From Kushneria pakistanensis (GTDB lineage: Bacteria; Pseudomonadota; Gammaproteobacteria; Pseudomonadales; Halomonadaceae): DNA of 64,000 nt. The notes below the pieces were generated by a model. The model ran no database searches. It was given only the letters and a program-made list of their open reading frames with translations, and was not told the DNA's origin. Below, piece after piece: positions 15,075 through 37,088 of the stretch. The translations under genes were made by a program, and so were the position numbers. The DNA lies in assembly GCF_014652795.1 (NCBI RefSeq), contig NZ_BMZM01000002.1, positions 622,025 through 686,024 of the forward strand. The letters are read 5' to 3'. The number at the start of each line of letters is the position of its first letter. Position 1 is the first letter of the stretch.

Positions 15075-15878
15075 ATGAGCACTGATTCATCGTGGGACAC
15101 CCCCCTGACCATTGCCGGGCGACGTTTCGCCTCGCGTCTGCTGGTCGGTACCGGCAAGTATCGTGACCTTGAAGAAACGGGCGCAGCCGTCCAGGCCAGC
15201 GGTGCCGAGATCGTGACGGTCGCCGTGCGCCGCTCCAACATCGGGCAGAACCCGGACGAGCCCAACCTGCTCGATGTCATTTCTCCCGAGCGCTATACCA
15301 TTTTGCCCAATACGGCCGGGTGCTATAACGCCCGCGACGCGGTGCGCACCTGCCAGCTCGCCCGCGAGCTGCTTGACGGACACAACCTCGTCAAGCTGGA
15401 AGTGCTGGGCAATGATCACACGCTCTATCCCAACGTGATCGAGACCATCAGTGCGGCGCGTACGCTCATCGAGGATGGCTTTGATGTCATGGTGTATACC
15501 AGTGACGACCCGATCGTGGCCGCCGAGCTTGAATCGATGGGCTGTTGCGCGGTCATGCCGCTGGGCTCGCTGATTGGCTCGGGTCACGGCCTGCTCAATC
15601 CGCACGCGCTGTCCCTGATTATTGATAATGCACGCGTACCGATTCTGGTCGATGCCGGTATCGGCACGCCTTCTGATGCGGCCATGGCCATGGAGCTTGG
15701 CTGTGACGGCGTGTTGATCAATTCGGCCATTGCCCACGCGCGCCAGCCGATTCTGATGGCCAGTGCCATGAAAAAGGCCGTTGAAGCCGGCCGCGAGGCT
15801 CGACTGGCCGAGCGCATGGGCAGAAAGACCTATGCCGCAAGCCCCTCATCGCCCAGTGAAGGCCTGATTACCGGCTGA
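15075..15878 (+). CDS. thiG: Thiazole synthase ThiG
   Basis: TIM-barrel enzyme of 267 residues that combines 1-deoxyxylulose 5-phosphate, ThiS-thiocarboxylate and dehydroglycine into the thiazole phosphate of thiamine. The Schiff-base lysine is K107 in [10 protein letters not shown]. Phosphate-binding loops are [10 protein letters not shown] and [17 protein letters not shown] precedes the ATG. The gene sits between thiS and trmB, the arrangement also found in Pseudomonas. I saw no THI-box upstream, so TPP riboswitch control is not supported here. Confidence 0.97.
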
Positions 15879-15922
15879 TGTGCTGGGGACATACCCGTTC
15901 CACCGTTGTTGACGACATTGTG

Positions 15923-16642
15923 ATGAAAGAAGAAGAGATAACGCAGGATGCCCAGGCCCCGCAAACGCCCCATCGTGGCGTCAAAAGCTATGTGGTGCGC
16001 AGTGGGCGCATGACCCTGGCCCAGCGTCGCGGCCTGGAGGTTGTCTTTCCACGCCTGGGGCTGAGTCTGGCACAGGGACGGCTGGATCCGGTGGCGCTCT
16101 TTGGCCGCCAGGCACCGCTGGTGGTCGAGATCGGCTTTGGCATGGGCGGTTCGCTGCTGGAGCAGGCTAGGGCCAATCCGGATACCGATTTTATCGGTAT
16201 CGAGGTGCACCCGCCCGGCGTGGGCAAGCTGCTTGACGAGGTCGACAAGGCCGGCCTTGAGAACGTGCGGGTATATCGTGAAGACGCCCTCAAGGTGCTC
16301 GATGACTGTCTGCCGGCCGGATCGGTGGATACATTACAGCTCTTTTTCCCCGACCCCTGGCCCAAGAAGCGCCATCACAAGCGCCGGATCGTCCAGCCTG
16401 CCTTCATCGAGCGCGTGCACCGTGTTCTCAAGCCGGGCGGGCGTTTCCACATGGCCACCGACTGGCAGCCGTACGCCGAGTATATGGTCGAGGCGATGAA
16501 CGAGACGCCGGGATTTACCACCCAGGCCCGGGAAGGCGACTACGTTCCGCGCCCGGACTTTCGACCGCTCACCAAGTTTGAAACCCGCGGCGAGCGCCTG
16601 GGGCATGGTGTGTGGGATCTGATCTATCAGCGCAACGCATAA
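15923..16642 (+). CDS. trmB: tRNA (guanine-N7-)-methyltransferase TrmB
   Basis: Makes m7G46 in tRNA using S-adenosylmethionine. With the ATG at 15923 it has 239 residues; an ATG at 15878 overlapping the thiG stop would add 15 residues, and neither start has a strong Shine-Dalgarno. The SAM site is [14 protein letters not shown], and the tRNA-binding catalytic segment is [20 protein letters not shown]. The C-terminus [17 protein letters not shown] is typical. Probably in one transcript with thiSG. Confidence 0.95.
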
Positions 16643-16683
16643 GGTGACAGGTGAGGCTGCCGGGCAGGCTCGCCGTATGCCAC

Positions 16684-16796
16684 ATAAAAAAGCCGCCCAA
16701 TCGGGCGGCTCAAGGACCGTGACTAGCTTGATGAGGAGATGAACCACTCGATACCTGACATATCGGGTTGTTCATGTGATGACTGGCGATCACCAC
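16684..16796 (-). ncRNA. Candidate Fur-regulated small RNA
   Basis: The predicted minus-strand transcript is about 110 nt, from near 16796 to a T-tract ending near 16684. It can fold into a 5' hairpin (GTGAT/ATCAC, 16793-16776), a second hairpin (TGAAC plus CGATA paired with TATCG plus GTTCA, 16774-16740), a single-stranded stretch at 16739-16711 beginning TCTCCTC, and a terminator stem. CUCCUC could pair with Shine-Dalgarno sequences. The only ORF inside is 21 codons without a ribosome-binding site. With Fur-like sites over the promoter, this is the plan of RyhB and PrrF RNAs. I see no clear sequence identity to either, so it is an unnamed candidate. Confidence 0.55.
16685..16710 (-). terminator. 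Intrinsic terminator of the candidate small RNA
   Basis: AGCCGCCC (16691-16698) and GGGCGGCT (16703-16710) form a perfect 8-bp GC-rich stem with a four-base loop. On the minus strand it is followed directly by TTTTTT. On the plus strand no T-tract follows the stem, so it does not fit as the trmB terminator. Confidence 0.8.
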
Positions 16797-16802
16797 ATCT
16801 CA

Positions 16803-16831
16803 AAGATAACCATTCTCATTTGGGCGGTCAA
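16803..16831 (-). promoter_or_regulatory. Sigma70 promoter of the candidate small RNA
   Basis: On the minus strand the -35 hexamer TTGACC (16831-16826) and the -10 hexamer TATCTT (16808-16803) are separated by exactly 17 bases. This is one of the best promoter matches in the window. Predicted initiation is near 16796. Confidence 0.65.
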
Positions 16832-16844
16832 GCCAAATGAGAAT
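16804..16844. promoter_or_regulatory. Fur-box-like palindromic region
   Basis: A perfect 12-bp inverted repeat, ATTCTCATTTGG (16812-16823) and CCAAATGAGAAT (16833-16844), brackets the -35 box. The stretch at 16804-16818 matches the 7-1-7 Fur consensus at 11 of 14 informative positions and covers the -10 box. A second, weaker match begins at TGAGAAT near 16838. Occupancy by Fur would block the minus-strand promoter and possibly a plus-strand promoter for the gene at 16937. Confidence 0.5.
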
Positions 16845-16936: not shown

Positions 16937-17431
16937 ATGTCGACGCCCGTGTCTTCTGCTCAACTACCCTCGCTTCGCTGGCTCAATACGCTGGTCATTG
17001 TCACGCTGATGACGGTCACCGTGGCCATTACCTACCTGGGCTATTACTACGTCGGGGCCGGCAACAGTTCGCAGGTGACCTGGTTTGCGCCCGAGCTTGC
17101 CTGCGAGCCACTGGACGAGCGTTGCTTCACCGCGCTGGGGCGCTTTGGCGATATGCACACGCAGTGGGATTATCAGAAAGGGCAACTGAGCGTGGACATG
17201 GTGCTGGGCGGTCTTGGCGCAAGCCAGGTCAGGGCGCAGCTTGAAGAGACCGGTACCCGTCGAGGAGATGCAGACATGGCGCTGACACCTGTGGCGCCCG
17301 GTCATTACCGCGGGACATTTGATCTTCCGGTGTGTGAGGGCGCAATCCATCGCGTGCGGGGCAGTCTTGTGGTGACAACAGACCGGGGCGTGCTGGGCAG
17401 CTGGTACGATCTGGCGCTACCGTGTCGTTAA
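16937..17431 (+). CDS. Membrane-anchored hypothetical protein (FixH-like layout)
   Basis: A 164-residue protein with one N-terminal membrane segment (about 18-41, ending LGYYYVGAG) and an extracytoplasmic domain. Cysteines in LACEPLDERCF, LPVCEGA and the C-terminal LPCR could pair. The beta-rich tail with APGHYRGTFDLP and GVLGSWYDLAL recalls FixH/YtkA-like domains, but I cannot assign a family. The ATG at 16937 has no visible Shine-Dalgarno. It lies 93 bases from the Fur-like palindrome and is flanked by non-coding sequence on both sides. Confidence 0.65.
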   Translation: MSTPVSSAQLPSLRWLNTLVIVTLMTVTVAITYLGYYYVGAGNSSQVTWFAPELACEPLDERCFTALGRFGDMHTQWDYQKGQLSVDMVLGGLGASQVRAQLEETGTRRGDADMALTPVAPGHYRGTFDLPVCEGAIHRVRGSLVVTTDRGVLGSWYDLALPCR

Positions 17432-35238: not shown

Positions 35239-37088
35239 ATATACTTTTCCTGACACCCCTGTTCCCGCTGCTGGGCGCGCTTGTCCTGGCATTCAATCCG
35301 CGTCTGCCCACACGGCTTGCAGGTCTGGTCGGCGTAGGGTCGGTCGGTCTTGCGGCGCTGGTCATGGTCTGGCTCAACGTGGCCTTTTACAGCAGCGGTG
35401 GCGAGGGCGTGACTCAGACGCTCTGGCAGTGGGTGGCGGTGGAAGACTTCCGGATGGGCTTCTCGCTCTATCTGGATGGCCTGTCGCTGACCATGATCAG
35501 CATCATCACCGGTGTGGGCTTTCTGATTCATCTCTTTGCGGCCTGGTACATGCGCGAGGATCTTGAAGGTGGCCCCGGGTTTGCGCGTTTTTTCGCCTAC
35601 ATGAACCTGTTCGTGTTCAGCATGCTGTTGCTGGTGCTGGGCGATAACCTCTTTCTGCTCTATCTGGGCTGGGAAGGCGTCGGGCTCTGCAGCTATCTGC
35701 TGATCGGTTACTACTACGAGAGCGAGGACAACGCCTGGTGCGCCTTCAAGGCCTTTATCGTCACTCGCATCGGCGACGTGTTTCTGGCCATCGGCATGTT
35801 CCTGCTCTTTGCCCAGTTCGGCACGCTCAATATTCAGGAGCTGCTGCGTCTGGCGCCCGAGGCCTGGGGTCGCGGCGATCTGATGGCGGAACTGGCTGCA
35901 TTGATGCTGCTGGGCGGGGCGGTCGGCAAGTCGGCCCAGCTGCCGCTGCAGACCTGGCTTGCCGATGCCATGGCAGGCCCCACGCCGGTGTCGGCCCTGA
36001 TTCACGCCGCCACCATGGTCACCGCCGGGGTCTATCTGATCGCCCGCACCCATGTGATCTTTGAGCTGGCGCCCTTTACGCTTGATCTGGTGGGTCTGAT
36101 CGGCATGCTGACGCTGCTGGTGGCCGGATTTGCGGCGCTGGCGCAGACGGACATCAAGCGGGTGCTGGCCTACTCCACCATGAGTCAGATCGGCTACATG
36201 TTTCTGGCGCTCGGAGTTCAGGCTTGGGATGTGGCGATCTTCCACCTGATGACGCATGCCTTTTTCAAGGCGCTGCTCTTTCTCTCGTCAGGCTCTGTCA
36301 TCATTGCCTGTCATCACGAGCAGAACATCTTCAGGATGGGTGGCCTGCGCAAGACGCTCAAGCTGCCCTATGCCTGCTTTTTGATCGGCGGGGCGGCGCT
36401 GTCGGCGTTGCCGCTGATCTCGGCCGGTTTCTACTCCAAGGACGAAATCCTCTGGCTCGCCTTTGATCACGGCCATACGTGGCTGTGGCTCGGGGCATTG
36501 TGCGGGGCCTTCCTGACCTCGGTTTATACCTTCCGCATGATCTTCATCGTGTTCCACGGGCGTGAGCAGATTCATCCGCATGCCGGTCGCGGGATCGCGC
36601 ATCATCTGCCGCTGATCGTGCTGGCGGTACTCTCCACCTTTGTGGGCGCGCTGATTCATCCGCCGCTGGAGAACGTGCTGCCGGCAGGCCCGGATGGGCA
36701 GTTCGGCCACAGTGTGCAGTTGATGCTCGAGATCCTGGCCGCGGTCGTGGCCATCGTGGGTGTCGGCATTGCCGCCGGATTGTTCCTCGGCCGTCGTCGA
36801 CTGGTGACCTCGCTTGCCCAAACAAAGGAAGGCGATCGCCTGTGGCGCTTTTTCAACAGCGCGTTCGCTTTCGACTGGCTCTATAACCGGGTGCTGGTCA
36901 GGCCGTTTCTTTTCATTGCCCGTCTGCATCGGCTTGACTGGGTCAATGGCCTGATGAACCTCTGGCCGGGGCTGGCTTTGCTGCTCAACGGCATCCTGTC
37001 TGATACCCAGAGCGGGCGATTGCGCTGGTATGCCGCGGTCATGACCGGTGGCGCCATTGCCACGCTGGTGCTTCTGCTGCTGCTATGA
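35235..37088 (+). CDS. nuoL: NADH-quinone oxidoreductase subunit L
   Basis: Mrp-antiporter-like proton-pumping subunit, 617 residues, about 16 transmembrane helices with the long lateral helix at the C-terminus. Conserved: [18 protein letters not shown] with the TM5 Glu, [31 protein letters not shown] with the TM7-TM8 region, and [21 protein letters not shown]. It is followed by a 130-base gap before nuoM. Confidence 0.97.

Follow-up and report, generated by a model that had tools for sequence, protein, structure and literature searches.

The 64,000-nt window of Kushneria pakistanensis DNA analysed here contains, on its minus strand, a gene for an RNA of about 114 nt (16684-16797) that is very probably a divergent, Halomonadaceae-branch homologue of PrrF, acting in trans as a Fur-repressed, iron-sparing small RNA (sRNA). 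In particular, reciprocal homology, conservation, covariation and predicted iron-sulfur (Fe-S) targets all favour the original prediction, made from the sequence alone, of an iron-sparing, PrrF-type sRNA under Fur control. Conservation argues that the interval is a real gene, and its sequence that it shares ancestry with PrrF and is organised to function in the same way, which makes it a divergent offshoot of an established type of regulator. Under iron limitation, such an sRNA would probably lower the output of enzymes that use iron.

The gene lies between trmB (15878-16642, plus strand; Pfam Methyltransf_4) and a plus-strand ORF of 164 aa (16937-17431). The latter is divergent from the sRNA, belongs to no family in Pfam or NCBIfam, and has relatives close to the sRNA in many loci of the family. 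The putative sigma-70-like promoter (16803-16831, minus strand) has the composition originally described, with a -35 box TTGACC (16831-16826), a 17-nt spacer and a -10 box TATCTT (16808-16803), and is kept in the copies that were read; the likely transcription start was placed from the -10 box. The predicted Fur operator (16804-16844, minus strand) combines a 15-mer at 16804-16818, which matches a Fur consensus at 11 of 14 positions, with an inverted repeat, ATTCTCATTTGG and CCAAATGAGAAT, whose arms (16812-16823 and 16833-16844) are perfect at 12 of 12 positions. The original prediction placed a Fur box over both promoter boxes within a perfect repeat; the repeat is indeed perfect, and the coverage of both boxes proves slightly loose, because the -35 box lies between the repeat arms and the best 15-mer lies over the -10 side. 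Sites with at least 11 of 14 matches occur twice in the 64 kb, as compared with a mean of 0.3 in 20 Markov resamples; the only other one is TGATCAGCATCATCA at 35494-35508.

Counts of the Fur box, and those of the core, the GTCAGG motif and the ORF below, refer to 83 distinct copies with at most one mismatch in the core. All 83 have a Fur-box score of at least 10 of 14 in the 70-nt promoter part, versus one of 83 in the 3′ part, and in most copies the box lies over the -10. Seven divergent or second copies (L013, L020, L023, L025, L038, L048 and L076) carry a Fur-like near-palindrome upstream of the -35 and none over the -10, a displacement that may reflect turnover of the operator's position. 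By simple scans of 1.1 kb alone, the promoter (one found, 0.5 expected) and the terminator (one found, 0.6 expected) are no better than chance; it is conservation that lifts both.

Across seven Kushneria loci, compared per 20 nt, gene sequences agree with the window copy at 88-100% of positions, versus 35-55% in the intergenic flanks. The original prediction had been staked on conservation beyond background, and this comparison bears it out. Further, the Halomonadaceae alignment conserves the promoter, two covarying hairpins, the core and the terminator, and keeps no reading frame. Using blastn, a match, in some cases short, was found in 35 of 58 relatives; the Rfam model of PrrF (RF00444), at E ≤ 0.01, matched 39 of the 58 and none of 14 control genomes. 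Within the family, 35 of 37 genomes have an RF00444 match, none above the cut-off, and only G019 and G026 lack one. Genus g11 includes G019 and four further genomes that RF00444 fails to match. R1, a covariance model built from 45 Halomonadaceae transcripts without the promoter, finds the gene in all 41 genomes of this genus, 40 of them at E = 1.9e-7 or better and one at 0.0018.

The exact core CUCCUCAUCAAGCUAGUCACGG is present in 73 stretches of named genomes, all from Halomonadaceae genera except one labelled Gammaproteobacteria bacterium MFB021; the family membership of these genera was verified for Kushneria and Larsenimonas and is otherwise our assumption. At these loci, trmB is found in 53 of the 73 and is convergent with the sRNA in 51 of the 53, the exceptions being two Cobetia loci (L039 and L066). 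The window genome holds one copy of the sRNA, and tandem copies occur in relatives; for example, locus L026 of G030 has three (at 988, 1288 and 1553), with CAT triplet insertions in the seed (CTCCTCATCATCAAG and CTCCTCATCATCATCAAG). Carriage of the Halomonadaceae version by plasmids or phages was rejected, as blastn gave no match in the plasmid or phage collection; the core pattern does occur on three viral contigs, where the gene is of the Pseudomonas type.

The RNA, taken as 114 nt, folds with a free energy of -41 kcal/mol (z = -3.6) into a 5′ hairpin, a middle hairpin and a terminator, all given here in minus-strand order. The 5′ hairpin (16776-16796) has eight pairs, seven of which show two-sided changes across 45 sequences, and the middle hairpin (16739-16775) carries a GUCAGG stretch (16754-16759) in its loop region. 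The invariant pairing core CUCCUCAUCAAGCUAGUCACGG (16717-16738) is single-stranded in this fold, and is followed by the intrinsic terminator (16686-16711), where six of seven pairs show two-sided changes; its GC stem at 16711-16690 is directly followed by the six T that were originally noted, and the RNA's end was placed from this T run. A terminator shared with trmB was ruled out, since no T run follows the stem on the plus strand. Overall, two-sided changes are seen in 13 of the 15 pairs that make up the 5′ hairpin and the terminator, and 97.4% of cells pair; none of 500 shuffles reaches any of five covariation measures, and the signal is lost when the partner is shifted by 1-3 columns. The alignment behind these numbers was hand-picked (45 of 88 distinct copies); it keeps some copies with a displaced Fur box and leaves out close relatives, copies with seed insertions or replaced middle parts, one truncated copy and the Pseudomonas type. 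Among the 83 copies, the core is unpaired at 16 or more of 20 positions in 52 minimum-energy folds and not in the other 31, and GTCAGG occurs in 64, being unpaired in 45 of those.

At Rfam's gathering thresholds the window has no match. The covariance search proposed with the original prediction, when run at a relaxed threshold, places PrrF (RF00444) first, with 65.2 bits (E = 5.1e-11) over model positions 1-150 of 150 and window positions 16682-16831. Because this score is below the curated cut-off of 90 bits, default annotation is silent and the interval is not filed as a member of RF00444; the homology stands. The runners-up, MicX (25.6 bits) and GcvB (23.2 bits), are far behind, and the RyhB and NrrF models are absent from the 12 Rfam matches at E up to 10, so that both identities were rejected. 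Accordingly, the earlier statement that there is no clear match to RyhB or PrrF holds for RyhB and has to be withdrawn for PrrF. The RF00444 alignment has in common UUGAC, the Fur box AAAUGA-AAU--UUAU, AUCUCCUCAUCA-GCUA-UCACGGU and the terminator. The parts that characterise PrrF are likewise in place, namely the core UCUCCUCAUCA(A/G)GCUA(A/G)UCACGGU, a predicted Fur site over the promoter (a sequence match of 11 of 14) and a Rho-independent terminator directly after the core.

The likeness to PrrF could in principle be limited to the Fur box, anti-Shine-Dalgarno stretch and GC terminator of a Fur-regulated sRNA that arose independently; the sub-cut-off score would fit such an origin, as would the 25.6 bits of MicX, which show that these parts alone yield some score. 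Reciprocal model matches and intermediate families make it quite improbable and largely refute it. In particular, R1 finds the Pseudomonas-type PrrF on viral contigs L105, L106 and L107 with 51.9, 51.9 and 44.6 bits (E values of 1.2e-11 to 9.2e-10), genes that score 153-164 bits with RF00444, and intermediate cores of the form CATCA(A/G)GCTAATCACGGTT occur in other families of the order. As R1 contains no promoter, the homology to PrrF is independent of it. R1 also matches 18 of 18 other sources, which were chosen beforehand as carriers of a PrrF-like gene, with a weakest E of 0.007. The PrrF genes of the three IMG/VR contigs (L105, 11032-11176; L106, 496-640; L107, 6099-6246) are located directly downstream of Mu-like phage tail genes and are followed, in L105, by an ORF that carries sigma-70 region 4 and DUF4880; they may be either a host flank beside a prophage or tailocin, or a phage-borne prrF.

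By complementarity, the core can pair with genes for Fe-S proteins at their ribosome-binding regions, most notably with acnA in two genera. The acnA ribosome-binding region, GATGATGAGGAGG, forms a predicted duplex with the sRNA of -34.6 kcal/mol, against a background over 49 window genes with a mean of -21.0, a standard deviation of 3.9 and a best value of -32.6 kcal/mol. Across the Kushneria acnA loci, pairing is -30 kcal/mol or better in seven of nine and weak in G002 (-20.6) and G007 (-24.3). Another possible target is leuC (-31.2 kcal/mol), where GGACCGTGA is complementary to the 3′ core and pairing is -30 or better in four of nine Kushneria loci. Classic targets of iron-sparing sRNAs include sodB, sdhC and ferritin genes; these were rejected as main targets, as in the window genome the predicted duplexes of sodB (-19.0), sdhC (-24.1) and two ferritin genes (-24.0 and -20.9 kcal/mol) are near background.

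A blind search for targets used the pattern TGATGAGGA-N4..12-ATG in 18 genomes, followed by gene calling and Pfam (NCBIfam for acnA of L291). It returned 73 places in 14 genomes with a PrrF match, 17 in G039, G040 and G041, and none in G038; of the 73, 71 were examined, and three places, the remaining two and one among those examined, correspond to PrrF itself. ORFs were kept when they had at least 80 aa, started at the ATG of the pattern and had at most 45 open codons upstream, with a 63-aa ferredoxin (L357) added by exception; L280, L282, L337 and L340, having no Pfam family, and narJ of L288, with 97 open codons upstream, were dropped from the count. In the PrrF-match genomes, Fe-S proteins account for 17 of the 27 genes with a family and six of 15 groups with the seed complement at their start codon (16 of 26 and five of 14 without the ferredoxin of L357); the gene counts include same-genus orthologues, which are not independent. 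The binomial probability of six in 15 groups is 5e-5 if 5% of proteins are assumed to be Fe-S proteins, and 7e-4 at 8%. These Fe-S matches are acnA (seven genomes of two genera), a PaoA-type 2Fe-2S subunit (six genomes of two genera) and, once each, a Rieske protein of VanA type, a Mo/Fe4S4 oxidoreductase, a HiPIP and the ferredoxin; the others are FtsX (twice), a cytosine/purine permease, FlgI, an aminotransferase IV, a cupin, DUF4268, BolA, an SRP54-type GTPase and an aldo/keto reductase. In G039, G040 and G041, which have no PrrF match, none of four kept genes encodes an Fe-S protein; this sample is small, and the absence of PrrF there is not proven, since the fast scan also missed genus g11. 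A 15-mer seed pattern with three mismatches gave 231 matches (148 forward and 83 reverse), with an apparent coding bias among the 100 listed, and was set aside.

The lack of a clear prediction for sodB and sdhC, together with convergence in 51 of the 53 named loci that hold trmB, could also point to a Fur-controlled RNA with a role other than iron sparing, acting mainly on other mRNAs or by transcription toward the 3′ end of trmB. This role is a shade less probable even than an independent origin, as the sRNA has its own terminator before the end of trmB, its most conserved part is the pairing core and not a trmB complement, and Fe-S genes are enriched among the seed matches. A small protein gene is the least credible reading, with hardly any probability left to it, for the 12-codon ORF readable from ATGTCAGG in the window copy has no start in 36 of the 83 copies and is split over three frames in the other 47 (32, 8 and 7), 31 of which have no stop before the sequence ends, and the sequence changes keep base pairs; no frame is kept across the 83 copies, and the roughly 110 bases originally described as lacking a usable ORF are thus about 114 nt without a conserved one.

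An iron-sparing sRNA of PrrF type would operate as follows. In the presence of iron, Fe-Fur would occupy the operator over the promoter and shut it; in its absence, the RNA of about 114 nt would be made, ending at its own terminator. The single-stranded core CUCCUCAUCAAGCUAGUCACGG would then pair with mRNAs that encode iron enzymes the cell can spare, at their ribosome-binding regions. The chief target would be acnA, alongside genes for other Fe-S proteins, and this pairing would block translation and promote mRNA decay, probably with Hfq. Counted against this explanation are the sub-cut-off Rfam score, the near-background classic targets, the weak acnA pairing in G002 and G007, the 31 of 83 folds in which the core is not mostly unpaired, and G026, which has no RF00444 match.

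The Kushneria sRNA resembles PrrF1 and PrrF2 of Pseudomonas in its order of parts, its Fur box over the promoter, its core AUCUCCUCAUCA-GCUA-UCACGGU, its terminator and its end-to-end match to the model. It differs in the sequences of the 5′ and middle hairpins, in its score (65.2 bits versus the cut-off of 90) and in that sodB and sdhC are not clearly predicted; moreover, PrrF1 and PrrF2 form a pair in Pseudomonas, whereas the window genome has a single copy and relatives have tandem ones. RyhB, NrrF, HrrF and BrrF are described as Fur-repressed, iron-sparing sRNAs of other lineages; FsrA and IsrR are further examples. RyhB and NrrF are alike in role, but have no Rfam match here at E up to 10, and the likeness of HrrF, BrrF, FsrA and IsrR is drawn from their descriptions. 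In P. aeruginosa, the reported targets of PrrF repression include sdhCDAB, acnA and acnB, and ArrF of Azotobacter vinelandii is named as an iron-repressed PrrF homologue (both PMC2851614); ArrF is likened to the Kushneria sRNA by description alone.

Among the matches listed from open-licence PMC full texts for Halomonas, Chromohalobacter, Oceanospirillales and Kushneria, no description of a native PrrF- or RyhB-type sRNA in Halomonadaceae was found, in agreement with the original prediction, which knew of no iron-responsive sRNA in the family. Within the same texts, papers naming both PrrF and Halomonas either employ PrrF1 of P. aeruginosa to build a synthetic scaffold in H. bluephagenesis or mention only the P. 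aeruginosa PrrF, and a 2014 review treats PrrF as a Pseudomonas RNA (PMC4211561). Halomonadaceae are described as industrial chassis (PMC12164125). These chassis gain a candidate iron-sparing RNA, and the PrrF1 scaffold, as used in H. bluephagenesis, may meet a putative native relative there.

Across the order, RF00444 at E ≤ 0.001 matches 51 of 293 genomes. Thirteen of them are above the cut-off, all in family f21, presumably the Pseudomonadaceae; the other 38 are below it and belong to eight families (f1, f2, f7, f16, f20, f34, f36 and f37), Halomonadaceae among them. The Rfam cut-off therefore confines PrrF to f21, though eight further families of the order have genes that score below it; such PrrF-like genes, as identified by model matches, appear to be new. 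At the class level, four of 370 genomes match RF00444, three of them in the order and one weakly (37.5 bits). Sixteen loci were taken from this wider set (one arbitrary, one of g11), and copies were read from ten. Cores in other families of the order include CTCCTCATCAGGCTAATCACGGTT and CTCTCTCATCAAGCTAATCACGGTT, besides the intermediates with CATCA(A/G)GCTAATCACGGTT, and most of the copies from the ten loci have a Fur-like box over the -10, which in L310 is upstream instead. Locus L314 of G266 has five tandem PrrF-like copies at intervals of about 280-300 nt, and two of the five are almost identical to each other.

In genus g11, the pairing core itself differs. Its sequence is CTCCCTCTCATTGCTAGTCACGGTCT in 20 and CTCCTTCTCATTGCTAGTCACGGTCT in one of 21 distinct copies (14 of the 41 genomes), so that the seed is CUCCCUCUCAUUG in 20 of 21 and CUCCUUCUCAUUG in the other, in place of CUCCUCAUCAAG; the complement of CUCCCUCUCAUUG is GAGAGGGAG. 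The copies were located by their 3′ part, GCTARTCACGGT, so any that lack it would escape this count. All 12 of the g11 loci inspected for it retain a Fur-box-like stretch over their -10, and RF00444 gives 35-48 bits in g11 loci. A genus with an apparently rewritten pairing seed, in all 21 copies read, would be new. With slightly more confidence than doubt, we propose that PrrF, rather than being a speciality of Pseudomonas, is an ancient iron-sparing sRNA shared by much of the order, and that in g11 its seed was rewritten with the Fur operator, the 5′ hairpin, the 3′ core GCUAGUCACGGUC and the terminator kept, the regulon having changed or having been kept through compensating changes in the targets. 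The co-evolution of an sRNA seed and its targets thereby becomes testable.

EctD is an iron enzyme, and in six of 14 distinct g11 loci (L293, L294, L297, L299, L300 and L373) ectD has a co-oriented PrrF copy upstream. As a target of the g11 seed, ectD was rejected, the g11 seed pairing better in two of the six loci and worse in four. A D-2-hydroxyacid dehydrogenase gene follows ectD in five of these six loci. In L373, where ectD is above the NCBIfam cut-off for ectoine hydroxylase, PrrF copies are found before, between and after the ectD and D-2-hydroxyacid dehydrogenase genes.
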